A stretch of DNA of 25,433 nucleotides from positions 1 through 25,433 of the IMG/VR virus record IMGVR_UViG_3300004231_000011, one strand, 5' to 3'. Positions 3,193 through 24,671 of the stretch are shown here, piece after piece. Numbering within the stretch: the first letter of the stretch is position 1; each line of letters begins with the position of its first letter. The notes below the pieces were generated by a model. That model was not told the DNA's origin. It was given only the letters and a program-made list of their open reading frames with translations, and ran no database searches. The position numbers and the translations under genes are program-made. The DNA is from a virus.

Positions 3193-3423
3193 TCAACCCG
3201 GGGTCAGGCCGTAAACGCGCGCACCGCGCCGGGTGAACCCGCTGCTCAGGCGCTGCACTTCCGCCTGCCAGAGGCTGACGCTGTCCTGCGCCTCTGTCAG
3301 CGTGGGCAGCTTGATCATGCGGTCACCCAGGCGGAATTCGACGCCCCCCGTCTGGATGGCGGTGAGCTGTGCCAGCGCGAGATCGAGCTGGTCCTGCGCT
3401 TGCTGGAGTGTGATGCCGGGCAT
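3193..3423 (-). CDS. Small head-tail joining-type protein (DUF6148/gpW-like)
   Basis: 76 aa, beginning MPGITLQQAQDQLDLALAQ and ending with LWQAEVQRLSS plus a basic tail. This is the pattern of the small proteins encoded directly upstream of lambda-type portals (gpW or DUF6148 type): helical N-terminus, short beta hairpin with a G-D-R turn, helical C-terminus. It probably acts in head completion or joining. The ATG at 3423 is the only plausible start. It lies inside the 58-bp double-hairpin repeat (3419-3476), and no Shine-Dalgarno-like sequence precedes it. Upstream codons in the same frame are open back to the TGA of the DUF4376 gene but contain no ATG, GTG or TTG. The exact family assignment (gpW versus DUF6148) is uncertain; the position before the portal is the strongest evidence. 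Confidence 0.8.
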   Translation of the reverse strand: MPGITLQQAQDQLDLALAQLTAIQTGGVEFRLGDRMIKLPTLTEAQDSVSLWQAEVQRLSSGFTRRGARVYGLTPG

Positions 3424-3476
3424 GCGCCGGATGGTCGGCGCAAGGCCTGTCCCGCTTCTACCAAAAGCGGGACAGG
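3419..3476. repeat. 58-bp double-hairpin repeat, copy 1
   Basis: Two adjacent hairpins. The first is TGCGCCG/CGGCGCA with a 6-nt loop. The second is a perfect 12-bp stem CCTGTCCCGCTT/AAGCGGGACAGG with loop CTACCAA. Copy 2 at 18438-18495 matches at 55 of 58 positions in the same orientation. On the minus strand it starts 2 nt after the stop of the DUF4376 gene and contains the ATG of the small connector gene. No T-run follows either hairpin on either strand, so it is not a standard intrinsic terminator. It may be a REP-like element, a regulator site or a recombination site. Confidence 0.9.
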
Positions 3477-3477
3477 A

Positions 3478-4020
3478 TCAATCCGGCCAGTCGATGGCAG
3501 CAAGGTCGTCCGCGAAGACGGCCACCTCGATCTGCGCGCGTAGGGCGATGCTGATGCCCCACAGCGCGTTGACCGCGGTGGCGCAGGCCTCGCCCACGGC
3601 CACCATGCCGGCGGCGTCCAGGGTGGTAGTGCTGTTGTCGGCCAGCACCCAGACCTGCGCGTAGGGCTCACCAGCGGCCTGGGCGCGCATGGCGCGCACG
3701 GTGGCGCCGGTGATGTTGGTGGCATTGATGTCGTACACCAGGCCGGCACAGGTGAAGGTGCCGGCCAGCAGCTCGTCGCGCCGGGCTTTCATCGCGTCCC
3801 AGCGGGCGGCCTTCAGCTCGGCCAGCGTGGCCGGCGGCGGCTGCCACTGGCCGGCAGACCACACCCAGGACGGCACCGGCGGCGCGCTGGTGGCCACTGC
3901 AGACGCCTGCACGGCGGGCAGCAGGCCGAGGTAGGCGCCGGTGGCGTCAACGGCATGCACGACGTGGCCGGTGTCGATGGCGGCCGCCTCGGCGCTGGTG
4001 AGTGGGCGGGGGGCAGGCAT
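3478..4020 (-). CDS. DUF4376-type protein, tail-fibre-associated
   Basis: 180 aa. The N-terminal third is a proline-rich variable region (LLPAVQASAVATSAPPVPSW). From about residue 75 it has the DUF4376 pattern: helix KAARWDAMKARRDELL, then GTFTCAGLVYDINATN, then VWVLADNSTTTLDAAGM, and a helical end. Such proteins are usually encoded at the end of phage tail operons beside fibres and resemble fibre-assembly proteins; a chaperone or fibre-tip role is inferred. The start overlaps the preceding stop as TGATG (ATG 4020). The stop is followed 2 nt later by double-hairpin repeat copy 1. Reasonably sure of the family, unsure of the function. Confidence 0.75.
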   Translation of the reverse strand: MPAPRPLTSAEAAAIDTGHVVHAVDATGAYLGLLPAVQASAVATSAPPVPSWVWSAGQWQPPPATLAELKAARWDAMKARRDELLAGTFTCAGLVYDINATNITGATVRAMRAQAAGEPYAQVWVLADNSTTTLDAAGMVAVGEACATAVNALWGISIALRAQIEVAVFADDLAAIDWPD

Positions 4021-4553
4021 CAGGGCTCCTTGGTGACCGACACCGTGATGCCGCTGCGCGAGGCCACCACCGTCGTGCCGGCGGAGTCGCTGGCGATTTC
4101 GAGCGTGATGGTGGCGGAGGCGGTGCCGATGGTGCTGCGCAACCACTGCCAGAACGGATTGCCGGAGATGCTGACCCAGGCGCCAGTGCCTGCGCCGCTG
4201 GTCGGCCCTGAGCCCGCAGTGACCGTGACACGCGCCCAGTACGCACTGCCGATGCCGGCCTCGGTGGGCGCGAACCAGTTGGCGGAGCCCAGCACGCTGT
4301 CGCTGCCGGTCACCGTCAGGGTGCCATCGGCGCGCGCGCTGAGTGCCGCGATGGCCGTGGCCGTGGTGGTGTCGCCCAGCACGATGGTCGGCAGGGGGTT
4401 CACCGGCGCCGAGCCGCTGAAGATCTTGCGCCAGGTGCCCGCGTCCCGATACCAAGCCTCCTTGAGCTTGCGCCAGGTGCCGCCGTCCTTGTAATGCAGC
4501 TCCTTGGCTTTGCGCCAGGTGCCGCCGTCCCGGTACCAGGTTTCGGCCGCCAT
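4020..4553 (-). CDS. Putative tail structural protein with three 14-residue repeats
   Basis: 177 aa. After MAA the protein begins with three tandem 14-residue units of pattern E-x-x-Y-[RK]-D-[GA]-G-T-W-R-K-x-x, followed by a Ser/Thr/Gly-rich beta-type region to the end (TVTGSDSVLGSANWF, then WARVTVTAGSG and ITLEIASDSAGTTVV). The aromatic and basic repeats suggest a binding or docking segment, and the rest looks like a beta-sandwich virion domain. It lies between two fibre-associated genes and overlaps both by TGATG junctions, so coupled translation and a fibre or baseplate-decoration role are likely. No named family is recognised with confidence. Confidence 0.75.
   Translation of the reverse strand: MAAETWYRDGGTWRKAKELHYKDGGTWRKLKEAWYRDAGTWRKIFSGSAPVNPLPTIVLGDTTTATAIAALSARADGTLTVTGSDSVLGSANWFAPTEAGIGSAYWARVTVTAGSGPTSGAGTGAWVSISGNPFWQWLRSTIGTASATITLEIASDSAGTTVVASRSGITVSVTKEP
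4419..4544 (-). repeat. Three tandem 42-bp coding repeats
   Basis: A 42-bp (14-codon) unit is repeated three times in frame. Starts of the shared TTGCGCCAGGTG core on the plus strand are at 4426, 4468 and 4510. The units encode the GGTWRK-type repeats of the 177-aa tail protein. The DNA copies remain very similar, which suggests recent expansion or gene conversion. Confidence 0.85.
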
Positions 4554-5335
4554 CAGTACACCAGCACGAAGTCACCGTCGGCGCCGCCGCTGGGCGTGCC
4601 GGTGGTGGTGGTGACGGTGATCGCGCCCAGGCCCTTGGTGCCGCTGTTGCCCTTGACCTGGCCGGTGAACACCGGCGCCGTGGCGAGCTGGGCATAGCCG
4701 GTGAGCGCCGAGCTGGTGAGGTAGCCGGCGTCGTTGGTCCAGGCCGACACGGCGGTGGGCTTGCCGGTGACGTTGGCCCAGGCCGGCGCGATCTGCGCGT
4801 TGAAATTGGCCAGGCTGATCTTGCGGTGGTAGCCGTCGCCGGCTGCGTTCTCGACGAACACGGCGCCAATGGCTGGCGCCTCGAGGCTGGACGACTGGCT
4901 GAGGTAGCGCCCAAAGAGGTCGCCGCTGGCGTCGCGCTTGGCCAGTGTGTTGGCTGTGGCCGCGGTGGCCGCCGTCTCGTTGACCAGGGCCGGCTTGCCG
5001 GTGACGTTGGCCCAGGCCACCGACCCGGCCGAGCCGGTCACGCTGATGCCCCAGGTGCCGCTGGTGCCGGCGCCGGTGAGCGGCGCGTAGGTGCTGGCTG
5101 CCGTGGTGGCCTTGAGGTAGCCGGTGGACTGCTCTACCCAGCTGCTGCCGTTGTAGCGCTCGAACACCCCGGTGCCCGCGTTGAAGCGCCGCGTGCCCGT
5201 GGGCGGGTTGCTCACCGTGCCCACGTCGGATGGCTCCAGCATGCAGGCCACGGCCACGATGTGCGCACGGATGGACGACAGCAGGCCCGTGTCGTAGTTG
5301 TCCGTCTTGACCGGCTTGTTGAAATCGATGCTCAT
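4553..5335 (-). CDS. Tail fibre protein
   Basis: 260 aa. It begins MSIDFNKPVKTDNYDTGLL, a typical N-terminal segment of small phage fibre or baseplate-attached proteins. A segment NPPTGTRRFNAGTGVFERY, then YNGSSW (about 43-67) matches a motif common in fibre shafts. Two copies of WANVTGKP (about 107-114 and 186-193) mark the repeated fibre shaft motif. The C-terminus (LGAITVTTTTGTPSGG, then DGDFVLVY) is a short beta end seen in fibres that rely on an additional tip protein. Starts at ATG 5335 in a TGATG overlap with the tail-tip gene. Host-recognition role is inferred. Confidence 0.8.
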   Translation of the reverse strand: MSIDFNKPVKTDNYDTGLLSSIRAHIVAVACMLEPSDVGTVSNPPTGTRRFNAGTGVFERYNGSSWVEQSTGYLKATTAASTYAPLTGAGTSGTWGISVTGSAGSVAWANVTGKPALVNETAATAATANTLAKRDASGDLFGRYLSQSSSLEAPAIGAVFVENAAGDGYHRKISLANFNAQIAPAWANVTGKPTAVSAWTNDAGYLTSSALTGYAQLATAPVFTGQVKGNSGTKGLGAITVTTTTGTPSGGADGDFVLVY

Positions 5336-8300
5336 CAGTAGCCTCGTGCAGTCCAGCTGAATGCCCCGGACACGCGGGCGCCGCTGCTGTCGAACAGCAG
5401 CACCTTGAATCCGGTGGGGTTGGGGGCGTCGACGAAGTCGTAGACGGCATAGCGGGCGCTCGTGCCGCTGGGCGTGACGGTGATCGAGTCGACGTCGATG
5501 AAGGCCACGCCGAAGCTCACCGCCGTGCCGCCGCTGTCGGTGGACACGGCCGAGCCGCCGCCGCTGTCGGTCTTGAGCTTGCCGCTGAGCTTGATGTTCA
5601 GGCCCTGCAGCTCGACCAGGTCGTCACCACCGGCGGCCGTGAAGGTGAGCCGCACCTTGACATAGCGGAAGCCGCTGGCCAGCACCTGCAGGGCGCCGGC
5701 GGCCGCGTCGATCCAGGGGTCACCGGCCAGGGCCTTGTAGGAGACCTGGGCCGCCATGGTCACCGCGCCGGCCAGCGTGGCCACCGACGGCGTGACGGTG
5801 ATGATGGTGGCCGGCAGCGCGGTGCCGTAGTCCATGGTGCGCTCGCAGTAACCGCTGGTGCCGCTGGGCTGGAACACCAGCGGGTAGCCCGCGGCGATCT
5901 GCGCATCGGGCGTGGCCCAGCTGCGGCTTTCGAAGTGCGTCTGGATCGTCTCGCCCAGGGCCGGGCCGTAGAGCCGGCCGCCCTCGAGGTACATGCCGCT
6001 CAACGTGATACCGCTGAAGTCGTCGTTGTAGTCGGCCCGCAGCACGTAGTCGGGCGGCTGGCTGATGGTGGCGGTGATGGCCACCGGCGTGCCGATGGTG
6101 CCGGCCGTGTCGAAGGCGGCCACCCAGTAGCTGTAGGCGCCGGCCTGCTGCTCGAACACCGTCCCGAAGGTGCTGTTGCCGTTGCTGCCCACCACGGTGC
6201 CACCGAGCCAGGTGGCGCCCTTGCGCACCTCGTAGCGGTCGATGGGCAGGCTGCCGGTGGCGGGGGCGCCCCAGTACAGCAAGGCGTTGTTGTCCACCAC
6301 CTCGCTGCGCGGGCCGGTGACGGCACCCGGGGCGGTGATGGTCACATCCACCGATGCGGGCGTGCCCACGTTGCCGCGTGCATCGATGGGGGCCACCCAC
6401 CAGCGCCGCGCGCCGGCCCAGTCGACCCGGCGCGACAGGCGGGTGATGTTGTACACGCCCACCGATGTGCCGCCCACCCAGGTGCTGCCGTAGCGCAGCT
6501 CGTAGGAGGCCAGCGCGAAGGCGCCGGCGGCGCCGGCATAGTCGAGCTGCAGGTCGGCGCCCACGATGGCCGCGGCGATGCTGGCGATGGTTGGCGCCGC
6601 GATCACCACCGGCATGCTGCTGGGCGTGCTGACGTTGCCCAGAGCATCCACCGCCGCCACCCACACCGTATACGTGCCGGTGACCTGCACCGCCAGCGAG
6701 TGGCTGGTGCCGGCCAGCTTGTCCAGCACCTGGGCGGTGTCCCACACCGCACCCAGGCGCCATTCGTAGCCCTGTACGTCGGGCTCGGGGTTCTTGTCGC
6801 ACTTCAGGCGCGCGCCGAAGGGCTCCAGGGTGTAGGCCAGGCCCGTGGGCGCACCGGGCGGCAGTTGGGCCATGGCGCCGGTGATGGCGTAGGTGTAGGC
6901 CGGCACGTCCGCCAGGCTCTGCTCGCCGGCCTGGAAGATGTTGAAGCTGGTGAACTTCAGGCTGATGGTCTGGCCGATCAGCGCCAGGTCCAGCGGGCCG
7001 CTCTTGGCGATGGCATCGTCCACCCGCACGAACGGGTCGTTGGTGGCATGGGCTGACGCGGCCGAGGTGGCGTAGGCACCGCGCACCAGGGCGCTGAGCG
7101 TGTAGGCGCCTGCACCGGTGAGGGTGGCGGTCTGGAAGGCCAGGTACTCCTGCACCGCGCCGCCCACCCAGCACAGGGTGGACAGCGCCGCTGCGTCGGT
7201 GGCGCTGCCGCTGATGAGCTGGCCCGAGGTGGCCACCGGCATGGCGCCGGCGCTGATGGGGCCGGTGAGGCGGCCGTAGCGCGCGCCGCCGTACACCGTG
7301 GACACGCGCTTGTAGTTGTTGCCGTCCAGGCTGAGCCACACATTGCAGCCGCCCCACAGGGCCCCGCTGCCCTTGACGGCGGCGTAGACCTCCAGGCCGG
7401 TGACGGTGCGGTCGACAGGCGCCTCGAAAAATACCGGGGCATCGACGTTGCCGGGGCTTCCATTGTAGTTGTGCTGGAAGCCCGCGGCTGCCTGGTTGGG
7501 GTAGCGTGTGGGCGAGGCGCTGCCGAGCGGCCAGTCCTCGACCTCGACCTCGAGCATGCCGTCCTCGTCCTCTCCGATCTCGGTGATGCTCACCGGCAGC
7601 TTGGCGAAGCCCAGGGCCTCGTCGGTGAGGGTGAGCAGGTCCATCGGCTCCAGAAGGCAGTAGGCCCAGGGCAGCTTGAGCGTGCCCGTGCCGCTGATGT
7701 TGAGGCTGCGCTGCATGACGATGCGCGCCACCAGGCCGGCAACGGCGGCATCGCAGATCCACGGGGCGCTGATGGTGTCCATCGTGCGCAGGCCGTTGAC
7801 AGCGATGTCGGCATCGTCCTTGGCTTCAGCGATGGTCTTGTTGTAGTAGTTGGCCCGGTCGTTGAACTCGACCTTGACGTGGTTGAAACGGTCGCTCGGC
7901 TCCTTGACCTGCCACTGCAGGGGGTCGTCGGTGCCCTCCTGCAACCAGGCGTTGTCGTCGATGTCGTACACCGGCGTGACGTTGGGCGTGTAGGTCACGC
8001 CGTTGCCTGTGACTGCCACGTCACCGAAGGGCACGATCCGCAGCCGGTCGTAGCTCCACACCGGCGCGCAGTTGGTGAACCGGCACAGTTCGGCGATGAA
8101 ATCACCCGCCCGTTGCTGCTCGGTGAGCAGCGGGCTCATCAGCAGGCCGGCGGCCGCGGCGTAGTCGATGGCCGCCGACACCTCGACGGTGTCCGCCGGC
8201 ATGCGCGCACCGTAGCGGCCGTTGGACAGCAGGCCGGCCGCGAATTCCCAGGGGTTGCAGTCGGGCGATGCCGCCCCGTAGCGGTAGGCGCCGGCGCCCT

Positions 8301-9081
8301 GGACCTCGAAGTTGTGGTTGTCTACCTGGGCACCGCTGCCCAGGCCGTAGTCCTGCGCATGCACGTAGGCCAGGCCCGGGTAGGCCAGCGCCTGGCCGGG
8401 GTGGGCGCTGGTCAGCCAGGCCGGCGCAGCCTGCGCCATGTTGCCATTGGCCAGCGTGATACCCAGCGTGACCAGCGGGGCCAGGTCGGGCGTGCCGCTG
8501 CCCCACTGGTACTGCACCGACAGCGGCTGGCCGCGCAGGCTGTCGCGCAGGATGGTGATGACCGAGCCGGCCAGGGTGTAGTCGGTGCCCTCGGCCAGCA
8601 CCACATCACGCTGGGTCTCCCAGTTGGTGGACTCGCCGACCACCACCTCGATGTAGCTGTAGCCGACCACCGGCGCACCGATGAGCGTGGCGCCGTGGGC
8701 CAGGGTGTAGGCCATGGCGCCAGAGCCCGGCGGCGTGTAGCTCTCGCTGGCCGAGGCAATATTGCCGGCTGACCAGCCGCCTTCAAAGACTTCCTTGCCC
8801 TTCCACACCCGCGCGATGGCGCCGACCGGCCCCTGGCAGATACCCATGAGCACGCTGGCGCTGTAGGTGTAAGTGGTGTTCTGCGTCTTGACGCCGCCGC
8901 CCTTGCCGCCAGCGTCCTGCACACTGGTGTGCGGCGTGGCCTTGAAGTCGCCGTACCAGATGAGGTTGCCGGGGATGCGGTTGACGCCGCCCAGAACGGG
9001 GATCGTGACGCCGAAGGCGCTGCTCTGCAGCTTGAGCGCCTCGATCCGGGTCTCGGAGGTTGCAATGGTCGAGCCACCCAT
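5335..9081 (-). CDS. Tail tip / host-specificity protein with three C-terminal FnIII-like repeats
   Basis: 1248 aa, starting at MGGSTIATSETRIEALKLQSS (ATG 9081, TGATG overlap with the NlpC gene). It is the large tail-tip protein that follows NlpC/P60 in this type of tail cassette, comparable in place to lambda J and to the GTA baseplate megaprotein. The first ~600 residues hold the hub-like region (GVTIPVLGGVNRIPGNLIW, then GPVGAIARVWKGK, then PVYDIDDNAW and SLNISGTGTLKLPWAYCLLEP). Three fibronectin-like repeats follow (roughly 770-1060), each ending in a WVAA-D-x-x-G or WVAPIDARGNVGTP-type motif. The C-terminus has a lectin-like or jelly-roll look (GASARY-type beta strands). It probably contacts the host surface and gates DNA exit. 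Confidence 0.9.
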   Translation of the reverse strand: MGGSTIATSETRIEALKLQSSAFGVTIPVLGGVNRIPGNLIWYGDFKATPHTSVQDAGGKGGGVKTQNTTYTYSASVLMGICQGPVGAIARVWKGKEVFEGGWSAGNIASASESYTPPGSGAMAYTLAHGATLIGAPVVGYSYIEVVVGESTNWETQRDVVLAEGTDYTLAGSVITILRDSLRGQPLSVQYQWGSGTPDLAPLVTLGITLANGNMAQAAPAWLTSAHPGQALAYPGLAYVHAQDYGLGSGAQVDNHNFEVQGAGAYRYGAASPDCNPWEFAAGLLSNGRYGARMPADTVEVSAAIDYAAAAGLLMSPLLTEQQRAGDFIAELCRFTNCAPVWSYDRLRIVPFGDVAVTGNGVTYTPNVTPVYDIDDNAWLQEGTDDPLQWQVKEPSDRFNHVKVEFNDRANYYNKTIAEAKDDADIAVNGLRTMDTISAPWICDAAVAGLVARIVMQRSLNISGTGTLKLPWAYCLLEPMDLLTLTDEALGFAKLPVSITEIGEDEDGMLEVEVEDWPLGSASPTRYPNQAAAGFQHNYNGSPGNVDAPVFFEAPVDRTVTGLEVYAAVKGSGALWGGCNVWLSLDGNNYKRVSTVYGGARYGRLTGPISAGAMPVATSGQLISGSATDAAALSTLCWVGGAVQEYLAFQTATLTGAGAYTLSALVRGAYATSAASAHATNDPFVRVDDAIAKSGPLDLALIGQTISLKFTSFNIFQAGEQSLADVPAYTYAITGAMAQLPPGAPTGLAYTLEPFGARLKCDKNPEPDVQGYEWRLGAVWDTAQVLDKLAGTSHSLAVQVTGTYTVWVAAVDALGNVSTPSSMPVVIAAPTIASIAAAIVGADLQLDYAGAAGAFALASYELRYGSTWVGGTSVGVYNITRLSRRVDWAGARRWWVAPIDARGNVGTPASVDVTITAPGAVTGPRSEVVDNNALLYWGAPATGSLPIDRYEVRKGATWLGGTVVGSNGNSTFGTVFEQQAGAYSYWVAAFDTAGTIGTPVAITATISQPPDYVLRADYNDDFSGITLSGMYLEGGRLYGPALGETIQTHFESRSWATPDAQIAAGYPLVFQPSGTSGYCERTMDYGTALPATIITVTPSVATLAGAVTMAAQVSYKALAGDPWIDAAAGALQVLASGFRYVKVRLTFTAAGGDDLVELQGLNIKLSGKLKTDSGGGSAVSTDSGGTAVSFGVAFIDVDSITVTPSGTSARYAVYDFVDAPNPTGFKVLLFDSSGARVSGAFSWTARGY

Positions 9082-9518
9082 CAGGCGATGCTCCAGTAGC
9101 AGGACGGGCGGCCGGCCAGCGGCGCCTCGCTGGCGCGCGAGACGATGACGCCCCGGCCGATGTAGGCGTGCACGATCAGCGGATCGGCGCCGCCTTCGAT
9201 GACGATGCCACCGTGGCTGAAGGTGCGGCCGAAGCGCCACAGGCCCACGTCACCCGCCTGGGGCATGGCGCCTTCGGGCAGGGGCTGGCAGTAGCGCATC
9301 AGGCCCTGCAGATAGAGCTCGTCCCCGCGGTGCAGGTGCCACTGCGGGGCGTAGGTGCCGGGATCGACATGCGCCACGATGCCGGCGGCTTCGAAGACCT
9401 CGGCCAGCAGCATCAGGCAGTCCACGCCCACGCCACGGATGCGCCCGTGGTGGTGGTAAGGCGTGCCGACCCAGGCCTGGGCTTGCGCCACCGCCGCGGC
9501 GCGCTGCTCGGGCGTCAT
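9081..9518 (-). CDS. NlpC/P60 family peptidoglycan hydrolase of the tail tip
   Basis: 145 aa from ATG 9518 (MTPEQRAAAVAQAQAWVGTP). The catalytic Cys is in GVGVDC (Cys34), the His in TFSHGGIV (His102), and a second His follows in VHAYIG (His117). This is the NlpC/P60 order. In phages of this type the protein is part of the tail tip and cleaves peptidoglycan cross-links during DNA entry. It overlaps the DUF2163 gene by ATGA and the tail-tip gene by TGATG. The family has a small signal-less form like this one, consistent with virion incorporation rather than secretion. Confidence 0.92.
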   Translation of the reverse strand: MTPEQRAAAVAQAQAWVGTPYHHHGRIRGVGVDCLMLLAEVFEAAGIVAHVDPGTYAPQWHLHRGDELYLQGLMRYCQPLPEGAMPQAGDVGLWRFGRTFSHGGIVIEGGADPLIVHAYIGRGVIVSRASEAPLAGRPSCYWSIA

Positions 9519-10411
9519 GTGATGGTCTCCGGCGCCGGCACGTAGGGCTCGGCGCGGAAGCGGGCGACGTTGGAGAACTTGACTGTGCAGTCGCCGTCCT
9601 TGGCCTTGTTGCAGCCGGCGCGCAGGGTGAACGCATCGCCCCCCGCAATGGCGAACGGGAAGGGGTACACCGCAACGATGGTGGCCGTGCCGGCTGCCAG
9701 CGCATGTGTGCGCACGGTGCGGCTGACGCCGGTGTTGGGGCCGCTGGTGAAGGTGAGTACGCCCAGGTCGGCCCAGGCCGCCGGCTTGGACAGCACGGCC
9801 GCGCTGACGCTGGAGACGATGCGCCGAGTGGGATCGCCCGCCGTGCTGGCAGCGCCCGTCACCGTGTAGGCGGATGCAGCCAGGCCGCACTGCGGGTCGT
9901 ACAGGGTGTTTCGGCACCCGGGCTGGTAGACATCGCCGGGTACCATCACGTCCAGCAGCTCGGCATGCGATCGCACCTCGGCCGTGGCCTGCGAGCGCCC
10001 GGTCTTGATGGCCCCCATGCGACCGAAGAAGTCGGGCACCACGCCGCGGCAGACGCCGCCGGCGTCGAGGAAGGCGCGCTGCAGCGCCACGGTGGCGCCG
10101 GCAAACACACCTTTGGCCAGCGCCTGAAGGATGGGCACGGTGCCCACCAGCACGCTGTCGTCGGCCAGCACGGTCATGCTCAGGGTGTCGACGGACACAC
10201 CGATGCTCTGCCGCCGCTGGCCGCGCCGCAGGCCAGGCCCCAGCGCCCAGGTGTGGCCGGCCACCGTCACCGGCGCATCGCCGCCGCTGTAGCGCAGCAC
10301 GGCGCCACCCAGCAGGGTGATCGTCCACAGGTCGACGGGCAGCGCTTGGCGGTTGGCATTCAGCCAGGCCACCAGCGAGCCCTCGGACGGCTCCCAGGTC
10401 GGTGTCTTCAT
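9515..10411 (-). CDS. DUF2163 / baseplate hub-type tail protein
   Basis: 298 aa, from ATG 10411 in a 4-nt ATGA overlap with the DUF2460 gene. Motifs fit the DUF2163 family: an N-terminal WITL-type beta region (VDLWTITLLGGAVLRYSGG), VDTLSMTVLADD, and a C-terminal Cys-rich signature VYQPGCRNTLYDPQCGL plus RAGCNKAKDGDCTVKF. The paired cysteines are the hallmark of the C-terminal half in this family (GTA tail-tip hub component in related systems). It acts in tail-tip assembly on the distal tail protein. Family assignment is confident from motif and gene order; biochemical role is inferred from homologous tail tips. Confidence 0.9.
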   Translation of the reverse strand: MKTPTWEPSEGSLVAWLNANRQALPVDLWTITLLGGAVLRYSGGDAPVTVAGHTWALGPGLRRGQRRQSIGVSVDTLSMTVLADDSVLVGTVPILQALAKGVFAGATVALQRAFLDAGGVCRGVVPDFFGRMGAIKTGRSQATAEVRSHAELLDVMVPGDVYQPGCRNTLYDPQCGLAASAYTVTGAASTAGDPTRRIVSSVSAAVLSKPAAWADLGVLTFTSGPNTGVSRTVRTHALAAGTATIVAVYPFPFAIAGGDAFTLRAGCNKAKDGDCTVKFSNVARFRAEPYVPAPETIT

Positions 10412-11004
10412 TCCGGCGGCACCGTGATCAGTTTGACCTCGCCGGTCTTCCAGAACCAGGCGATGAACTGCTCGAACGTGAGCTCGTCGGCCTCGAAGCG
10501 CACGCGCCAGTAGTAGCTGCCCGACCAGGTCAACACCGCGGCCGCGGCCGGCGCCGTGCTGAAGGTCACCAGGCCGGCCGCACTGACGGTGTAGCCCGAT
10601 GCCTGCAGCACACCGCCGATGTAGATCTGCGGGGCGGCAACCAGGTCATAGACGGGCTCGGCAAAGCCGCCGAAGGTGCGAACCAGCTGGAACTGCGTGG
10701 CGGTGCCGTTGCCCACGCCGAAAGCCTGGGCAGTGACCGATCGGTCGTCAGGATCGAGAAACAGGAAGCTGTCAGCCGCGCCGCCACGGGCATTGAAGAA
10801 GCCGAACAGGCCCTGGAACTCGGCGAACGCAGCCTCGCTGCGCAGGAACTCGTAGCGCAGCGCGTAGCGGTAGCGCGGCAGGTGCATGTAGCGGCGCCGC
10901 CACTCGCGGCCGCTGGGCGTGGTCTTGATCGACGTCTTCCACAGCGGCGTGCGGGCCACGGGCCATTGCAGGCCGGGAAGGGAGGGGTAGATGGCAGCGC
11001 TCAT
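10408..11004 (-). CDS. DUF2460 / distal tail-type protein
   Basis: 198 aa, start ATG 11004, 3 nt after the tape measure stop. The typical DUF2460 features are present: YPSLPGLQWPVARTPLWKT at the N-terminus, YRYALRYEFLRS (about 45-57), a GFFNARGGAADSFLFLDPDD segment (about 68-87) and GKVTF-like strands followed by a WYWRVRFE-like motif (here YYWRVRFEAD, about 166-175). Family members form the first ring of the tail tip below the tube. It overlaps the DUF2163 gene (ATGA), so equimolar production is likely. Confidence 0.9.
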   Translation of the reverse strand: MSAAIYPSLPGLQWPVARTPLWKTSIKTTPSGREWRRRYMHLPRYRYALRYEFLRSEAAFAEFQGLFGFFNARGGAADSFLFLDPDDRSVTAQAFGVGNGTATQFQLVRTFGGFAEPVYDLVAAPQIYIGGVLQASGYTVSAAGLVTFSTAPAAAAVLTWSGSYYWRVRFEADELTFEQFIAWFWKTGEVKLITVPPE

Positions 11005-11007
11005 GGG

Positions 11008-13404
11008 TCAGAAGTCCAGATCGCGGCGCGCCGCCTTGAGGGCCTTGACCAGGTCCTTCTTGTGCACCAGAAAGAACTCCCCGGCCGAGGCGCCCCGCAC
11101 CTCGACGGTGAGGTCGCCGCCGCTGCGCTCGCCGCCGCCACCCAGCGAGCCGTCGGCCAGCGCGCCGCGCAAGGGGTTGGCGATGTGGGCAGGCAGCACC
11201 ATTTCTTCCTGGTGCAGCTGGGTCATGGGGTTGACGCCGCTGGGGATGTCGAACCCGCCCTCGGCGCTGGCCAGGCCCGACACCGCAGCGAACACCGCCG
11301 CCATCGCGGCCAGCGCCAGCACCGGCCCGACCCATGGGATGGATGCCATCGCGGACGCTGCGCCCGACCCTGCCTCGGCTGCATTGGCTGCCACGACGAC
11401 GGCCGCCTCGCCTGTCTTGGCTGTCGTCGTGGCAGTGGCGCCGGCAACGACGGCTGCCTTCTCAGACGCCACAAAGCCAAGCTTGACGGCCAGCATCTTG
11501 GCCTGGCTGGCGATGTACTGCGCGAACGGCTTGGTGATGACTTCGGTGATGAAGATGTCGCGCACGCCGGTGAAGATGCTGGCCAGCGCGCCGTACCAGG
11601 TCTGGGTGCGGGTGAGCATGCCGTTCAGGGCATTTCCGAAGCTGTCACCGATGGCCGTGAAGGTCTCGGTCCCGATGCCCTGCTTGGCCAGGCTGGTCTG
11701 CAGCTGAAGCATGCCCTGCTGGTACTGCTGTTCCAGTTGCAGCATGCGCCCCAGGACCCGCTGTTTCTCCACCTCGGACGTGGTCGGGTCAGCCGCGAGC
11801 AACTGCATCCGGGCCGCCAGTGCGTTGCGCTGGATCTCGTAGCGCTGGGTCTCGTACTGCAGATCGAGCTGGAGTTGCTGCGCGCTGGTGATCAGGCCCA
11901 GGTCCAGTGCGGCCTTGCTGGCTGCGCGCTCGCCGTCGACCCGGCCCAGCGCCAGCGCTTCGGACTGGGTCAGCATCTCAGCGTCCAGCGCCTTGCGCTC
12001 CTTGGCGGCCTTGCCGGCGATTTCGACCTCCAGGCCGGCAGCCTTGCGCAGGATGGCCGTGCGGTCGGCCACGCCCATCTGGGCACTGGCCAGGATGGCG
12101 CGCCAGAAGCCCAGCTCGCGCTCCTTGCCGTATTCGGCGCCCTGGTCGAGGATGGCCGAGACGCGCTTCTCCTCGGCCAGCACCAGCTCGTAGGTGGCCA
12201 GCACGCTGTGCTGGGCGGGGTCGGCCTTGTCCTTGTCGTCGGGCAGCTTCTTGTCGCCCGGGACGAATGGCTTCTTCTTGGTCGCGCCCTTGCCGTCGTC
12301 CTCAGCGGCACGTGCCTCGGGCGAATACTTGCCGAGCTGCATCACACGCTGTTCGAAGTCGTCCAGCGCCGCACGGGCCCTGACGCCGTCGGCCTTGACG
12401 GCTTCGCTGATGGCATTGAAGCCTGCCCAGTTGCGCTTGGCCGTGGCCAGGATCTCGGTGGGCGGCGCGCGCAGCACCTCCCACAGCAGGCTGACCTGCG
12501 CCATGATGGCGCCGATCTCGCGCCCGATGCCGCCGAACACGAAGCCGACGTTGGCGCCCAGCACGGCCAGCGCCTCGAAGGTGACGCGCAGCTTCTCTGC
12601 CATCACGTCGGCCAGGTTGCCCTCGCGCTTGACGTTCAGGAACTCGGTGGCCACCGCCTGCAAGGCCGGCAGCAGCGCCTTGGCGATCTGCATGCCCATG
12701 CCCTGCGTGGCTGTCTGCATGCGGGTCAGCGTGTCGTTGAACTCTTCGGCCGCCTTGCCGGTCTTGGTGTCGACCACCACGCCCAGGCGCAGCGCCTCCT
12801 CGCGCAGCTCGGCCAGGCCCTCGCGGCCGGCGTTCAGGAAGGGGATCAGCCGCGGGCCCAACTTCTCGCCGAAGACATCGATGGCCAGGCCCGTCTTGCG
12901 GGCGCCGTCGTCCATGCTGCTGAAGCGTTCGGCCAGCTCGAGCAGCAGCTGGTCGGCGTCCTTGATGCCCTTGGGATCAAGCTTGAGGCGCCGGAAGGTT
13001 TCGACGGCCTCCTTCTGGCCCTGCTGCCCGTCGCTGAGCAGCGCGCTGAGCTTGGCGTAGGCCTTGCCGAGCGCCTCGACCTCGACGTCGGCCAGCTTGG
13101 CGGCGTAGGCCATGCCGCTGTACTGCTCGGTGGTGACGCCGGCCTTCTGGGCCGACTTGCTCATCTCGTCCTGCATGTTGATGCTGGACTTGATGAAGGC
13201 GGCGAACGCGCCGCCGGTGATGGTGGCGGCGATGCCGGCCAGGCGCGCCTGCAGGGCCTGGGCAGGCCCGAGCGTGTCGGACATGGCCGAGGCGCTGTCG
13301 CGCCCGAAGGCGTTGATGCTGGTGGTGGCCTCGCGCAGCTTCTGCCGCAGGGGGCCGACATCGCCGTCGAGGACGACTTGTGCGCGCGGGCTGCTGGTGG
13401 CCAT
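11008..13404 (-). CDS. Tail tape measure protein
   Basis: 798 aa, the longest helical protein of the tail module. It starts MATSSPRAQVVLDGDVGPL and is dominated by Ala/Glu/Lys/Gln-rich helices with coiled-coil character (about 100-620). A strongly hydrophobic segment (about 670-730, containing WVGPVLALAAMAAVFAAV) probably inserts in the host membrane during ejection. The LHQEEMVLPA motif near the C-terminus is typical of the family. It sits directly after the G/GT chaperones, as expected. Length sets tail length; by comparison with lambda gpH (853 aa) a slightly shorter tail is predicted. Start ATG 13404 is 2 nt after the end of the GT frame. Confidence 0.95.
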   Translation of the reverse strand: MATSSPRAQVVLDGDVGPLRQKLREATTSINAFGRDSASAMSDTLGPAQALQARLAGIAATITGGAFAAFIKSSINMQDEMSKSAQKAGVTTEQYSGMAYAAKLADVEVEALGKAYAKLSALLSDGQQGQKEAVETFRRLKLDPKGIKDADQLLLELAERFSSMDDGARKTGLAIDVFGEKLGPRLIPFLNAGREGLAELREEALRLGVVVDTKTGKAAEEFNDTLTRMQTATQGMGMQIAKALLPALQAVATEFLNVKREGNLADVMAEKLRVTFEALAVLGANVGFVFGGIGREIGAIMAQVSLLWEVLRAPPTEILATAKRNWAGFNAISEAVKADGVRARAALDDFEQRVMQLGKYSPEARAAEDDGKGATKKKPFVPGDKKLPDDKDKADPAQHSVLATYELVLAEEKRVSAILDQGAEYGKERELGFWRAILASAQMGVADRTAILRKAAGLEVEIAGKAAKERKALDAEMLTQSEALALGRVDGERAASKAALDLGLITSAQQLQLDLQYETQRYEIQRNALAARMQLLAADPTTSEVEKQRVLGRMLQLEQQYQQGMLQLQTSLAKQGIGTETFTAIGDSFGNALNGMLTRTQTWYGALASIFTGVRDIFITEVITKPFAQYIASQAKMLAVKLGFVASEKAAVVAGATATTTAKTGEAAVVVAANAAEAGSGAASAMASIPWVGPVLALAAMAAVFAAVSGLASAEGGFDIPSGVNPMTQLHQEEMVLPAHIANPLRGALADGSLGGGGERSGGDLTVEVRGASAGEFFLVHKKDLVKALKAARRDLDF

Positions 13405-13406
13405 GG

Positions 13407-14053
13407 TCAGTGCGTGGTGGGCGGTTGGTCAGGCAGGTCGAGGAAGGCCAGCATCGGGTCGTCAGGCCGGCCCTGCATCACGGGCAGGCCGCCGGCCATG
13501 GCTTCGCGCACCGCCTCGGCAGCCGTGCGCGCCGCTGGCGGCCGTGCCGCCGCCTGCTTCACACCGAGCGCTGCGCCAATGCGCCGCAGCGCGATGGCCG
13601 GCGGCGGCAGCACGGCCCAGGCCAGGTTCAGCGCCCGCACCTGGGGCAGCGTGACGTGCTGGTCGATGTGGTCCCAGGTCCAGCCGGTGCAGGTGATCAG
13701 GGCGGTGTAGAGCGCGTCCCATGGGTCTAGGCCGGGGACGGCGTCCCCGGCATCGCTTCCCCCGGGGCACCGCCTTCCTTCTTGGGTGCCACGCCGCAGA
13801 CATCAGCCACGGTGGAGATGGCCTCCATGAGCTGCGGGTAGGTGCCCGGCATGGCCTCGATGTCCGCCACATCCAGGCCGGTGGCCAGCGCCAGCACGTT
13901 GAACAGCTCGTCGAGCACGCCTTCCTCGACCTGGCCGAGCGAAAACGCCCGGCCGATGCGGTTCATCGCCGGCAGCACCTTGCGCAGCTTGCCCAGCGGG
14001 ATGGGCGCGACCGGCAGCACACGCTGGCCGATGGTGATGGTCTTGTCGGTCAT
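13407..14053 (-). CDS. Tail assembly chaperone, frameshifted long form (gpGT-like)
   Basis: The zero frame (108 aa, 14053 to 13727) can switch to the -1 frame at C CCG GGG (13760-13766). Translation then continues to the stop at 13407, giving about 215 aa. The -1 frame is open across the whole junction and past the upstream stop. It reads DPWDALYTALITCTGWTW, then HIDQHVTLPQV and LNLAWAV, a pattern like lambda T-type domains. Without the frameshift this second frame has no good start; only a GTG at about 13640 inside the conserved part is available. Role by family: the long form recruits the tape measure protein and tail tube subunits during tail assembly and is absent from virions. Confidence 0.75.
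13727..14053 (-). CDS. Tail assembly chaperone, short form (gpG-like)
   Basis: 108 aa starting MTDKTITIGQRVLPVAPIPLG at ATG 14053, ending with a flexible Pro/Gly/Lys tail (APKKEGGAPGEAMPGTPSPA) and TAG. The helical core (about 20-85) and the position between tail tube and tape measure fit gpG-type chaperones. The flexible tail carries the slippery site for the long form. The ribosome-binding site is weak, so translation may partly depend on the upstream tail tube gene. Confidence 0.85.
   Translation of the reverse strand: MTDKTITIGQRVLPVAPIPLGKLRKVLPAMNRIGRAFSLGQVEEGVLDELFNVLALATGLDVADIEAMPGTYPQLMEAISTVADVCGVAPKKEGGAPGEAMPGTPSPA
13760..13766 (-). other. Slippery heptamer for -1 frameshifting, C CCG GGG
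   Basis: The heptamer has the X XXY YYZ form in the zero frame (GCC CCG GGG GAA). A -1 slip keeps the first two bases of both codons paired and moves translation into the open T frame. It lies about 10 codons before the zero-frame stop, the typical place in G/GT chaperone genes. Efficiency cannot be judged from sequence. Confidence 0.6.
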
Positions 14054-14066
14054 CCGGGCCGCCTGG

Positions 14067-14816
14067 TCAGAACAGGCAGATGTAGCCGAGCGACCCGGCC
14101 GAGTCTTCGAACGCCTCGGCCTCGAAGTCGTACATGGCGAAGTCGTCGTTCTTCAGCGGCACGTTGAGCTTGCCGCTGACGCAACGGTTGAGCTTCATGA
14201 CCAGCGTCTTGCCGTCGTAGGACGACTGCAGCAGCGTGGTGAAGCTGGGCGTCACGCCCATGATGTCGTTGGTCAGCGCGAAGACCTGGCCGCCGCTGGC
14301 GGCGCTGTATTCGTAGCTGATGAGCGCAGTCTTGCTGGCGTCGGCGGTGTTGAAGGTGTAGACCCCGGTGCCGGTGTTGACGCTGTACTGGCCTGCCGCT
14401 GGCGCCGTGGCCACACGGGTGGCGGCGATGCCGGCGATCAGCACGCCCAGGTCGGTCACGAAGGTGCCGCTGGACGGCGGCGCGATGGTGATCTGGAACG
14501 GCGTGCTGGGGATGGTGGCCGAGAAGTCCAGCACCGCGGCCTTGATGCCGGCGGTGGCCGTCTTGCCGTAGAACAGGCTGCCCAGGACGCCGCCGTTGAT
14601 GTCGGCGTACTTCGCCTTGATCTCGGTCTTGCCCTTGCCCTGGCCGATGGCCACCGGGTAGCGCTTGTTGCCGTACAGGGTCTTGAGCTCGACGGAGAGG
14701 TCGACGCTGACGTCCTGCAGCACCGCCAGGACCACCGGGGTGGGGTTGGCGATGGCGGCGCCGGTGGCGTCGTTGGTGGGGATGGCGATGAGCTTGCCGG
14801 CGCCGAAGTTGATCAT
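14067..14816 (-). CDS. Major tail tube protein
   Basis: 249 aa from ATG 14816 with GGAG 8 nt upstream. The sequence is mostly beta (DVSVDLSVELKTLYGNKRYP at about 35-54 and FQITIAPPSSGTFVTDLGVL at about 106-125). The segment LQDVSVDLSVELKTLYG matches the tube-protein pattern in this phage type. It ends in DFAMYDFEAEAFED followed by GYICLF. Tube proteins polymerise around the tape measure to make the tail shaft. Located between the tail completion gene and the G/GT chaperones, the conserved order. Confidence 0.88.
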   Translation of the reverse strand: MINFGAGKLIAIPTNDATGAAIANPTPVVLAVLQDVSVDLSVELKTLYGNKRYPVAIGQGKGKTEIKAKYADINGGVLGSLFYGKTATAGIKAAVLDFSATIPSTPFQITIAPPSSGTFVTDLGVLIAGIAATRVATAPAAGQYSVNTGTGVYTFNTADASKTALISYEYSAASGGQVFALTNDIMGVTPSFTTLLQSSYDGKTLVMKLNRCVSGKLNVPLKNDDFAMYDFEAEAFEDSAGSLGYICLF

Positions 14817-14841
14817 GAGGGGTTCTCCAGTAGGGGTAGCT

Positions 14842-15279
14842 TCAGCTGACCTGTGCGGTCAGGTCGCCCACGCGCACGAGCGCCTGGGCCTGGTAGGTGG
14901 CGGTGATGCGGCCCAGGGTCTGGTCGCCGGTGTCGCCGGTGGCCTGGGTGCGGATGCAGCGCAGGCCCTTGGCCAGCCCGCGCAGCACGGCGTCGGCCTG
15001 CAGGGCGGCATGGGTCTGCATGTGCAGGGCGTCGGCGCTGGTCTCCCAGTCATCACCGCGCACCAGGTGCTCGACCTCGAACTCGAAGGTGCTGTGGTCC
15101 ACACCGCCGCCATGTGCGCTGTACTGGCCGTCAGACCGTCGCAGGTTCACGGCCGGCACTTCCTCGGGCGCAAAAGCATCGGCCCGCCCGCGGTAGACGC
15201 GGCTGGCAGCCGACGTGCCAGCGGCCAGCAGCACGGCCTCAGCGCGAGCCAGGAATGCTTCGTTGACGCTGGCGGCCAT
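14842..15279 (-). CDS. Tail terminator / minor tail U-like protein
   Basis: 145 aa, start ATG 15279, 2 nt after the stop of the preceding gene with AGGGG as ribosome-binding site. An N-terminal helix (MAASVNEAFLARAEAVLLAA) is followed by a beta sheet containing FEFEVEHLVRGDDWETSAD and a helix with LRGLAKGLRCIRTQ. This is the fold order of gpU-type tail terminators, which cap the tube and join it to the head. Assignment rests on position (connector - this - tail tube) and the secondary structure pattern; no exact family signature can be claimed. Confidence 0.65.
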   Translation of the reverse strand: MAASVNEAFLARAEAVLLAAGTSAASRVYRGRADAFAPEEVPAVNLRRSDGQYSAHGGGVDHSTFEFEVEHLVRGDDWETSADALHMQTHAALQADAVLRGLAKGLRCIRTQATGDTGDQTLGRITATYQAQALVRVGDLTAQVS

Positions 15280-15281
15280 GC

Positions 15282-15587
15282 TCAGCCCCTGGCCAGCGGG
15301 ATCTGCAGCTCGGCGCCGTCGTACAGCGGCAGGCCGGCCTCGCGGGCCTTCCAGGTGGTGCCGTCGACGACGAATTCATCGCCACGCGCCACGCCCAGCG
15401 GCGCGTCGGATGCCTGCATGCGCACCAGCGGGTCGACGCTGAGCTGCATGCCGCCCAACCCATTGCCGCCTGGCTGGTCGAACAGCGCCTTCACCACCAC
15501 CGGCGTGGCGCCGGCGTGCGAAAAGGTGATGTCCTGCCCCAGGAGCCGGTACAGCGCTGGCAGCATGGCGGCGAAGGGGCTGGACAT
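15282..15587 (-). CDS. Head-tail connector, gpFII-like
   Basis: 101 aa starting MSSPFAAMLPALYRLLGQD at ATG 15587. A short N-terminal helix is followed by a small beta barrel: ITFSHAGATPVVVKALFDQP, then GVARGDEFVVDGTTWKAREA, then GAELQIPLA. Size, fold pattern and the site directly after the major capsid gene fit gpFII-type head-tail joining proteins. The upstream ribosome-binding site is poor. An ATG start further upstream in the same frame would overlap the capsid gene extensively and is a shadow. Confidence 0.75.
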   Translation of the reverse strand: MSSPFAAMLPALYRLLGQDITFSHAGATPVVVKALFDQPGGNGLGGMQLSVDPLVRMQASDAPLGVARGDEFVVDGTTWKAREAGLPLYDGAELQIPLARG

Positions 15588-15612
15588 GGGCGCAGTCAGC
15601 GGCTGGGTGACG

Positions 15613-16560
15613 TCAGGCGACGGCGGCCGACCAGAGGAAGCCGAGGTCGTTGGCGGGCAGGACTTCCTTGACGGTGTCCACCAGCTGCACCACCTGGGCG
15701 CCGTCGGTGCCGACCTTCTCGTCGAACCAGTCGCGCACGCGCAGACCTCCGCCGCTCTCGGCCGTGAAGCCGAAGGTGGTGGCCGCCTGGGTGGTGGTGA
15801 CCGGCTCGGTGTAGATCGCCGCGGCGAACTTGCCCCAGCAGCGCGCGTAGCTGGGCGTGGCACCCTTCTTGGCACCGTTGACCCAGCCCTGACCGACGAT
15901 GACCTCCTGCACTTCGAGCAGGTCGGCCAGCTGCTGGCGGCTGACGACGCCCTGGCTGTTGAGGCCGGCACCGGTGCCGCGGATGGCTTCGAGGATGCGC
16001 GGGTGCTGGCGCAGCACCGTCCACACGGCCTGGCCGAACACCACCTTGTTGGGGCGCATGATCATGCCGTCGAAGGCCGTGAGCATGGCCGACAGCGGGT
16101 TGCTGTTGGTGTAGTCGCTCCACTGGGTGGTGCCCGACAGCGTGGCCTTGTTGGCTGCGGCGAAGTTGGCCGCGTTGAAGACGACGCCGGCGGCGCGCTG
16201 CTCGCGATCCAGCAGCACCAGGCGGCTGAGGTTCAGGCTGGCCATGCCCAACGGGTCGAACGGCGTGCCTTCGGCGTTGCGCACATCCTGCAGCGGGACG
16301 ATGTCCTTGAGGCCGTAGTCGACGGTGGAGTCGGTCACCTCGGTGCCGCCGAACTCGACCACATTGGCCTCGCTCTTGCGGCCGATCTTGGTGTCCGGGA
16401 CGGTGAAGGCCTCGTCCTTGTTCATCTTGAAATACTTGAACGAGTCCAGCGCGACAGGGATGCGCGGCAGCACCATGTCGGCGATCAGCTGCTCGTTGCG
16501 GTAGCTCAGCGCAACGGCGGTGAGCGCGGGGTTCAGCGGAAACGGGGCTTGGGTGGCCAT
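15613..16560 (-). CDS. Major capsid protein, HK97-type fold
   Basis: 315 aa, start ATG 16560 with AAAGGA about 10 nt upstream. N-terminal LTAVALSYRNEQLIADMVLP is followed by VALDSFKYFKMNKDEAFTVP and TVDYGLKDIVPLQDVRNA (about 80-97), typical of this capsid family. A central P-domain-like helix is followed by TAFDGMIMRPNKVVFG (about 165-180) and ILEAIRGTGAGLNS. The C-terminus has the A-domain strands (LRVRDWFDEKVGTDGAQVVQ, then KEVLPANDLGFLW). The gene follows protease/scaffold and cement genes. The protein forms the icosahedral shell. Confidence 0.93.
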   Translation of the reverse strand: MATQAPFPLNPALTAVALSYRNEQLIADMVLPRIPVALDSFKYFKMNKDEAFTVPDTKIGRKSEANVVEFGGTEVTDSTVDYGLKDIVPLQDVRNAEGTPFDPLGMASLNLSRLVLLDREQRAAGVVFNAANFAAANKATLSGTTQWSDYTNSNPLSAMLTAFDGMIMRPNKVVFGQAVWTVLRQHPRILEAIRGTGAGLNSQGVVSRQQLADLLEVQEVIVGQGWVNGAKKGATPSYARCWGKFAAAIYTEPVTTTQAATTFGFTAESGGGLRVRDWFDEKVGTDGAQVVQLVDTVKEVLPANDLGFLWSAAVA

Positions 16561-16608
16561 GATCAGGGGGTCCTTTCAGGGATTGGCGGAGGCGGCGGTG
16601 CCTGGGCG

Positions 16609-16989
16609 TCAGCCCTGGAACGAACCCGGCTCGATGCTGATGGGGATGATTTCGCCCGCTGCAGCAGCGGACGCCAGCGCGAGGCCGATGGTGCGCACGT
16701 TGGCGCCGGCGGAGGCCGCAGCGGTGATCACCCGGCCGCTGGCATCCACCGACAGCAGCGCGCCGCGGGTGATGGCGGCACCGGCTTCGGCATCGGCGAT
16801 GCCATCGAAGATGACCTCGACCCGAGCGCCGGCCGTGGCCTGACCCAGGTTGTCGGCCACGCCGATCAGGGCGTCGGTGGCGGCGGCGGCCTGGATGACG
16901 ACGCCGTCGGCGGTGCCAAACTTGACGGTGCGGTACGGGAGAACGGCCGCCTCGGCGACCAGCGACTTGGTGAGACCGGGGTTAGCCAT
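16609..16989 (-). CDS. Capsid cement / decoration protein (DUF2190-like)
   Basis: 126 aa from ATG 16989 (MANPGLTKSLVAEAAVLPYR); AAGGAG lies 8 nt upstream and the start overlaps the protease 3' end by 8 nt. A longer frame starts 9 codons upstream but lacks that ribosome-binding site. Motifs YRTVKFG (about 19-25), AATDALIGVADN (about 37-48) and VEVIFDGIADAEAGAAITRG (about 57-76) are those of DUF2190-type small beta proteins. They trimerise on the capsid surface and stabilise the expanded head. Position between protease and major capsid is the lambda gpD position. Confidence 0.85.
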   Translation of the reverse strand: MANPGLTKSLVAEAAVLPYRTVKFGTADGVVIQAAAATDALIGVADNLGQATAGARVEVIFDGIADAEAGAAITRGALLSVDASGRVITAAASAGANVRTIGLALASAAAAGEIIPISIEPGSFQG

Positions 16990-17476
16990 TGGCTTGCTCC
17001 TTGGTGACGATGGCAAGCGCCTGGACGGCGCTGATGGTGCGGCCGGCGGCGGAGGCCTCGGCTTGCTTCTTCACGATGGCGTCACGCAGGTCATGCGCCT
17101 TCGAGATGGGGGTGGCGACGGGCGCTGCGGCCATGGTGGTGGTGTCGTCGTCAGCGGTGCCGGTGGCATCGGCAGCCACCGGCGCGGGCCGGTCGGCCAG
17201 GATGTTGGCGGCACGACCCTGGTTGGCAGCGCGCTCGGCGCCGAGCACGGCCATCGCGGCCTCGGGCCCGGTGGTCTTGCCATCGAAGGCCAGCTGCTGG
17301 ACCAGGGCGGTGTGCCCCGGGTAGTCCTGCGCCATCACGGCCTGGATGCGCTCACGCTCGGCGGTGGCGCCGGCGGCCTGCAGGCAGGCAGCCAGGGTGG
17401 GGTGCTCGCTGGCCAGCGCGGCGCAGAAAGCAGCGGGGTCCAGGGCCAGTGCAGCCTCGGTGAGGATCTTCGACAT
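16982..17476 (-). CDS. Candidate nested in-frame scaffold protein (Nu3-like)
   Basis: An internal ATG at codon 323 of the protease (MSKILTEAALALDPAAFCAA) is preceded by AAGGAAA about 9 nt upstream. It would give a 164-aa product identical to the C-terminal domain of the protease. That domain is helical and charged with a low-complexity middle (DATGTADDDTTTMAAAPVA), as expected of a scaffold. Lambda and several relatives make scaffold from an internal start in the protease gene. Seen: start and ribosome-binding site. Inferred: separate expression. Confidence 0.5.
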   Translation of the reverse strand: MSKILTEAALALDPAAFCAALASEHPTLAACLQAAGATAERERIQAVMAQDYPGHTALVQQLAFDGKTTGPEAAMAVLGAERAANQGRAANILADRPAPVAADATGTADDDTTTMAAAPVATPISKAHDLRDAIVKKQAEASAAGRTISAVQALAIVTKEQANG

Positions 17477-18442
17477 GGGGGTGGTTTCCTTCAGGGGGGT
17501 GTCGGCGGCGTGCGCCTGGACGGTGGCGGCGGCCTGGGCCGACGGCAGGCCGCCCAGCGCGAACTGCGCGACGCGGCGGCGCGCGAAGTCGCCGGGCTTG
17601 GTGGCCAGCTGCTCGACCATGGCGTCGACGGTGGAGAAGCCGTCGGCCAGGCCGGCGGCAATGGCCTGGCGGCCGAGGAAGACGCGGCCATCGGCCATGT
17701 GATCGAGCACCTGGGCCGAGGTGACGCCGCGCGAGGCCGCCACGGCATCCACCAGCACGGTGTAGAGGTGGTCCATCTGGCCCTCTTGGTAGGCCAGCAT
17801 CTCGGGCGATGGCGCCTCGCCGTTGAGGGAGGCGCGCTTGTACTTCCCACGCACCAGCTCCATGGTGTTGGGGGCCTGCGGGTCCCAGCTCATGCGCTGG
17901 TAGACGCCGAGGCTGCCGACCTGGTCAGTCTCACCCTCGATGTAGACGGTGTTGGCTGCCGAGCCGACCCAGTAGGCAGCGCTGGCCATGGTGCCCTCGC
18001 TGACCGACACGGTGGGCTTGGCGTCAGCCAGCGCGCGCAGCGCCTCGGCGGCGGCCGGGATGCCGAGCACGTTGCCGCCCGGCGAATCCCAGGCGATGAC
18101 GGCCGACTGCACGCGGCTGTCGCCCTTCATGGCGCCGAACTGCCGGGCCAGCATCTGGGTGGACACGCCGCCGCTGATGTCGGTCATCATGTTGGCTTTG
18201 GGCGCCATGACACCGGACACCGACAGCACGGCCACACCACCCGGGCGCACTTCGTACTGCTGCTGGGCATTGGCCAGCGGCCGGCCCAGGCTGGCCTCGA
18301 CGGCCTGCAGGTCGATGGTTTCGCCGCGCAGGTGCAGCGCGTAGATGCGCTGGATCTCCGCCAGCGTCTCGGGCAGGACGGCCCAGGGGGCGGTCAGCAG
18401 CAGCTCGATGCGCTGGGGTTGGGGGCGGTGCTGGGATGGCAT
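16982..18442 (-). CDS. S49 family head maturation protease fused to scaffold domain
   Basis: 486 aa starting MPSQHRPQPQRIELLLTAPW at ATG 18442. The S49 core spans about 65-290: VAVLSVSGVMAP, then AVIAWDSPGGNVLG (about 115-127), then SEGTMASAAYWVGSAA with probable nucleophile Ser154, then DQVGSLGVYQ. The protease core and the helical C-terminal third (from about 323, Ala/Glu/Gln-rich) follow the lambda C-Nu3 plan: protease plus scaffold removed during prohead maturation. The ATG lies inside repeat copy 2 (18438-18495) with no clear Shine-Dalgarno. The same frame is open upstream, but its extension is the repeat-encoded peptide and antisense to the lipoprotein gene, so I do not use it. Confidence 0.92.
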   Translation of the reverse strand: MPSQHRPQPQRIELLLTAPWAVLPETLAEIQRIYALHLRGETIDLQAVEASLGRPLANAQQQYEVRPGGVAVLSVSGVMAPKANMMTDISGGVSTQMLARQFGAMKGDSRVQSAVIAWDSPGGNVLGIPAAAEALRALADAKPTVSVSEGTMASAAYWVGSAANTVYIEGETDQVGSLGVYQRMSWDPQAPNTMELVRGKYKRASLNGEAPSPEMLAYQEGQMDHLYTVLVDAVAASRGVTSAQVLDHMADGRVFLGRQAIAAGLADGFSTVDAMVEQLATKPGDFARRRVAQFALGGLPSAQAAATVQAHAADTPLKETTPMSKILTEAALALDPAAFCAALASEHPTLAACLQAAGATAERERIQAVMAQDYPGHTALVQQLAFDGKTTGPEAAMAVLGAERAANQGRAANILADRPAPVAADATGTADDDTTTMAAAPVATPISKAHDLRDAIVKKQAEASAAGRTISAVQALAIVTKEQANG

Positions 18443-18495
18443 GCGCCGGATGGTCGGCGCAAGGGGTGTCCCGCTTCTACCAAAAACGGGACAGG
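18438..18495. repeat. 58-bp double-hairpin repeat, copy 2
   Basis: It is identical to copy 1 at 55 of 58 positions, in the same orientation, 15,019 bp away. The first hairpin (TGCGCCG/CGGCGCA) is intact. The second retains a 7-bp core TGTCCCG/CGGGACA because CC to GG and G to A changes weaken its outer and inner pairs. The minus-strand protease ATG lies within the repeat, and the plus-strand lipoprotein begins 60 bp beyond its other end. The element therefore occupies the divergent intergenic region. Confidence 0.9.
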
Positions 18496-24635: not shown

Positions 24636-24671
24636 GAAGAAAAGAGCCGGCCAGGCACCTGCCCGGCCGGC
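24636..24671 (-). terminator. Intrinsic terminator-like hairpin for leftward transcription
   Basis: GCCGGCCAGGCA (24646-24657) and TGCCCGGCCGGC (24660-24671) form a 12-bp stem with one mismatch and a 2-nt spacer. On the minus strand it is followed by TCTTTTCTTCC. It would stop leftward transcripts from the minus-strand ORF at 24920-25309 and insulate the CII-like gene. The T-run is interrupted by C, so strength is uncertain. Confidence 0.5.

Follow-up and report, generated by a model that had tools for sequence, protein, structure and literature searches.

The two near-identical 58-nt elements of this virus record are very probably late promoters resembling those of the phage Mu C protein, with dyads that would be bound by a Mor-family protein encoded in the same record and that would drive the operons of the head genes. 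The evidence consists of the sites, their positions, the covariation of their palindromic arms and the coupling of arm identity to the recognition helix of the regulator, all of which can be read from sequence.

The repeat and its relatives

The window, that is, the whole stretch of DNA analysed, comprises an IMG/VR record in full (25,433 bases). In a search against that record, the two copies align at 55 of 58 positions (95%; E 3e-22) in the same orientation, and folding gives two hairpins for each on the minus, coding strand, with z-scores of -4.5 and -4.9. Both results agree with the original prediction of a double-hairpin direct repeat heading the portal cassette and the protease gene. On the minus strand each copy finishes in a start codon, the ATG of gpW/DUF6148 (3423) for copy 1 and that of the S49 protease (18442) for copy 2. 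A scan of the whole record returned these two copies and no third. The features discussed here are collected in Table 1.

Table 1. Genes, element copies and proposed promoter parts in the window
Feature	Position	Strand	Remarks
Portal protein, lambda family	1545–3188	-	PF05136 2.6e-101
gpW-like connector (DUF6148)	3193–3423	-	PF19645 2.5e-5, just below its cut-off; first gene after copy 1
Element copy 1	3419–3476	-	Heads gpW(DUF6148)–portal; putative operator dyad, -10-like region, start codon; R1 76.6 bits (training sequence)
Copy 1 GACCAT	3431–3436	-	Proposed -10 hexamer, 8 nt before ATG; GACCAT also in L085 and L089 copy 2, GACAGT in L089 copy 1
Copy 1 dyad, TGTCCCGCTT-TTGGTAG-AAGCGGGACA	3448–3474	-	Proposed Mor operator; centre 38 nt before gpW ATG
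S49 head maturation protease	16982–18442	-	PF01343 4.3e-20; first gene after copy 2; ATG of the site is where N-termini align
Element copy 2	18438–18495	-	Heads S49 protease–capsid–tail operon; R1 79.1 bits (training sequence)
Copy 2 GACCAT	18450–18455	-	Proposed -10 hexamer of S49 promoter
Copy 2 dyad, TGTCCCGTTTTTGGTAGAAGCGGGACA	18467–18493	-	Proposed Mor operator; centre 38 nt before S49 ATG
Lipoprotein-like gene	18556–19065	+	phrog_14789 6.9e-29; between mor and copy 2
Mor-family regulator	19069–19365	-	HTH helix ISKSQVQR; ATG 19365 overlaps terL end; longest ORF starts GTG at 19407

Along the minus strand, terS, terL and mor are followed by the lipoprotein-like gene on the other strand, one copy of the element, S49, cement, capsid and the tail genes to DUF4376, and then by the other copy, gpW, portal and tail-type genes. 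The two copies flank the block from S49 to DUF4376, and the gene calls bear out the predicted bounds of this protease–capsid–tail–DUF4376 block. Elsewhere in the window, a replication-type gene contains an 11-nt tandem-like repeat (CTGTGCGACCG; 23477–23620), and positions 24639–24705 of the minus strand score 33.8 bits (E 0.0047) against the Rfam family Betaproteobacteria_toxic_sRNA, below its gathering threshold of 50; this may hint at a betaproteobacterial host.

Among annotated phages and plasmids, neither the element nor the whole window had a real match, and no MCP relative was confirmed in bacterial genomes; four close relatives (L085, L088, L089 and L090) carry the element directly before S49. 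In L089 the element recurs 11.6 kb further on, its dyad identical, at the head of a fibre-type gene. Model R1 was built from five window-type copies, and its independent finds are L088 and the second L089 copy only.

A related layout, in which palindromic arms enclose the core TTTGCCCTATTT, is seen in the S49 leaders of other phages. Scanning by pattern and with a second model located the related element in about 30 more phage contigs; nearly all copies precede either S49 or, immediately downstream of the Mor-like gene, gpW, and an ortholog of the gpW-like connector follows the site in many relatives. Record scans found gpW and S49 sites and no other close copy in G421, G013, G014, G422 and G423, the S49 site only in G010 and G420, and a third site in G011. 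The late operons sharing the site are those of gpW and S49, together with a holin-like gene (G011), a cement-like gene (L274; third operator copy at 7489–7516 on the minus strand) and the fibre-type gene of L089. The window copies escaped model R2, and it is by position, architecture and intermediates (L089, L005 and L265) that the window element is tied to the wider TTTGCCCTATTT family.

Arm identity and the Mor recognition helix

The regulator matches the Pfam Mor family (6.9e-6, 26.5 bits; cut-off 24.9) and the PHROG late transcriptional activator (2.7e-7), and the profile of the Mor-like family matches the PDB entries 1rr7 (Mor), 9l0x (C) and 9vw8. The dyad is 27 nt long at both gene starts. 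Over its 14 arm positions, the sites of one genome differ at zero or one (10 pairs), compared with a mean of 2.5 differences between genomes. Changes in the arms are paired, with 20 double-changed cells as against 5.3 in shuffles.

The class of arm goes with the helix of the regulator: GTCTC with SRA/SRS-type helices, GTGCC with SRRT or SRRA, GTGCA with SRRTVYN, GTTTC with SKTTLWR and GTCGC with the HR/DR type. An extra arginine is present in the Mor helix of nine of the 10 rows with GTG arms and in none of the 23 others (Fisher 2.6e-7, kinship ignored). The phages L238 and L299, 86% identical over 5 kb, differ in their arms at both sites and in their helices, SRRT and SRAT, respectively. On a tree built without the helix, there are about nine changes of the arm label and eight of the residue. 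On the supported branches of the weakly resolved Mor tree, three of four independent pairs agree and none opposes, a number too small for significance (sign test p 0.25). L088 is an exception to the helix code, and the two sites of L197 differ from one another. Mixed arrangements were also seen in L267 (1501–1600, in the L188 record), where a GTCTC-type and a GTCGC-type dyad lie ahead of a holin-like gene, and in L272 (2148–2186), a phage with the Mor helix SRRT, where a hybrid operator joins a GTGCC left arm to a GAGAC right arm.

Because arm identity follows the Mor recognition helix, hairpin 1, with arms nearly identical within a genome and different between genomes, is best read as a dyad in DNA. 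We conclude from these comparisons that site and regulator have changed together, and that a recognition code is readable from sequence. Of the functions first suggested for the repeat, this covariation gives good support to one, namely that a late regulator, for instance the Mor-like protein, binds there; the binding itself is predicted.

A structured RNA leader, in which the two hairpins control translation of gpW and S49 and are bound by a phage or host RNA-binding factor, was our first reading, and it was dropped once the coupling of arm and helix was seen. The folds of the coding strand are good (z -3.5 to -5.8), the stems covary, the central loop is conserved in the wider family, and hairpin 2 ends beside the ATG and is significant in six of the seven window-type copies. 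Nevertheless, arm identity follows the HTH recognition helix of a DNA-binding family, and pure structure does not require the arms to be the same at the two sites of one genome. A -10-like box conserved at a fixed distance and the several S49 leaders in which hairpin 2 is not significant also speak against it, and we consider this explanation unlikely. No Rfam family matched at the element.

Geometry of the proposed promoters and the second hairpin

Counting from the dyad centre, the wider family has A at position 27 in 33 of 35 sites, A at 29 in 31 and T at 31 in 32, which defines a -10-like box with the conserved form nAaAgT; in window-type copies the corresponding hexamer is GACCAT or GACAGT. 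A sigma-70 type -35 within the dyad core was considered but is not relied on. In the window, as in most phages, 37–39.5 nt separate the S49 ATG from the dyad centre, the exceptions being L088 (41.5), L265 (55.5) and L250 (54.5). S49 leaders have no clear Shine–Dalgarno sequence; many gpW leaders are longer and contain GGAG. Since the start of S49 is near-fixed relative to the dyad centre and lacks a Shine–Dalgarno sequence, the 5′ end of its mRNA is probably the AUG itself or very close to it, which makes the message, on sequence grounds, probably near-leaderless.

We propose that the Mor-family protein, probably made together with the terminase genes, binds both dyads, as we infer from the covariation, and that host RNA polymerase would then start at the weak -10 box some 26 bp downstream of the dyad. 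One such start would drive gpW–portal and the other S49–capsid–tail. This arrangement has a close parallel in Mu, where Mor and C bind dyads at the middle promoter and at four late promoters, and where Pm is without a marked -35 (PMC4287176). Mor at Pm and C at the late promoters Plys, PI, PP and Pmom share with the present system a Mor-family HTH protein and a dyad upstream of a promoter with no evident -35, as well as the control of several late operons by one regulator (PMC4287176). The present system differs from Mu in that the gene for the regulator lies between terL and the first site, in phages with lambda-type portals, that the sites head gpW and S49, that the dyad arms vary by lineage and that the S49 mRNA looks leaderless. 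If transcription starts at the AUG, the dyad centre would be at about -38 to -40, compared with -43.5 in Mu.

Alternatively, the Mor-family protein could use these sites to repress the head operons, for instance while the phage is a prophage. Selection on a repressor would produce the same coupling of arm and helix, and the dyad would sit close to the -35 region. The characterised members of the family, Mor and C, are however activators (PMC4287176), and the mor gene lies among terminase and head genes and carries the PHROG label of a late transcriptional activator. We hold repression to be improbable.

Under the late-promoter reading, hairpin 2 may act as do the hairpins of the T4 genes e, soc, 49 and I-TevI, which silence read-through mRNA (PMC3014915). 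As in T4 e, soc and 49, the hairpin would cover the start region and be missing from the late-promoter transcript (PMC3014915); it would probably keep mRNA reading through from upstream untranslated. The regulator here is a different one, S49 has no Shine–Dalgarno sequence, and silencing is suggested by fold and position. In the wider family, the significance of hairpin 2 is mixed.

Repeats at gene starts are also known as the SAS of cluster K mycobacteriophages, with an extended form, ESAS, that has inverted repeats. These phages infect another host group, and the likeness is one of placement and architecture.

Cassette order and its consequences

The usual order in the wider family is terL, mor, site, gpW, portal, site, S49, and almost all relatives of the portal protein have terL–(mor)–gpW–portal–S49. 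L085, whose terL and capsid are 84% and 92% identical to those of the window, instead reads terL–mor–element–S49, with no gpW–portal between, and L088 and L089 have the same order; L085 is without the lipoprotein-like gene, its element directly following the mor stop. Because L085, an independent contig, shows this junction and L088 and L089 agree in order, misassembly is an unlikely cause of the displaced portal cassette, and an artefact of this kind was rejected. Furthermore, the longest exact stretch common to the two copies, read from sequence, is 27 nt, so that a k-mer assembler with k of at least 33 should not collapse them.

Judged by gene order, the cassettes of the window are swapped relative to the usual order, each retaining its own site, and an exchange did take place, either between the sites or of the cassettes behind them. 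We take it to be an ancestral event in which the site stayed with each cassette. As originally predicted, joining the two sites of the window would give terL–mor–site–gpW–portal, as in the canonical order of relatives. The suggestion of a modular recombination site holds in the weak sense that this canonical order implies a swap; there is no sign of a dedicated recombinase or of ongoing excision.

Is recombination what the sites are for? Two direct copies that excise or move a 15-kb block for module exchange would account for the swapped block; the palindromic arms and asymmetric core resemble recombinase sites, and the second copy of L089 lies between the tail module and the fibre genes. The sites nonetheless stay at the starts of gpW and S49 across many phages, their arm specificity follows a Mor-family HTH, and no recombinase family turned up in the searches of window proteins. 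The gene order is explained by recombination, be it between the sites or of their cassettes; that recombination is the function of the sites we think very unlikely. The other early suggestion, a host REP-type repeat, or else chance, has next to no likelihood: short palindromic repeats do occur at gene borders, but there are only two copies in the record, the family covaries and is conserved in position, and no convincing copy was found in 84,980 bacterial and archaeal genomes (exact pattern) or in 399 genomes of one order (covariance model). Two matches were ascribed to chance: an AT-rich pattern match in a Bacteroides MAG (L185) and the only match among the 399 genomes (L270), which is inside a coding region.

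More speculatively, and in our view with a low probability, sister phages may repeatedly switch the specificity of their late regulator and of every one of its sites in step. The resulting late circuits would be blind to each other, possibly avoiding cross-activation by related phages in the same cell. Site-headed cassettes that yield near-leaderless mRNA, with hairpins silencing read-through, might then make whole head modules movable yet expressed on time.

If the copies are indeed late promoters bound by the Mor-family protein, Mu-style late control by Mor and C would extend to a large set of phages with lambda-type portals, and some 30 naturally matched pairs of regulator and operator would be available for reading a recognition code. 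A leaderless S49 mRNA would be predicted, and it would be explained how a portal cassette far from its usual place is yet switched on with the other late genes.
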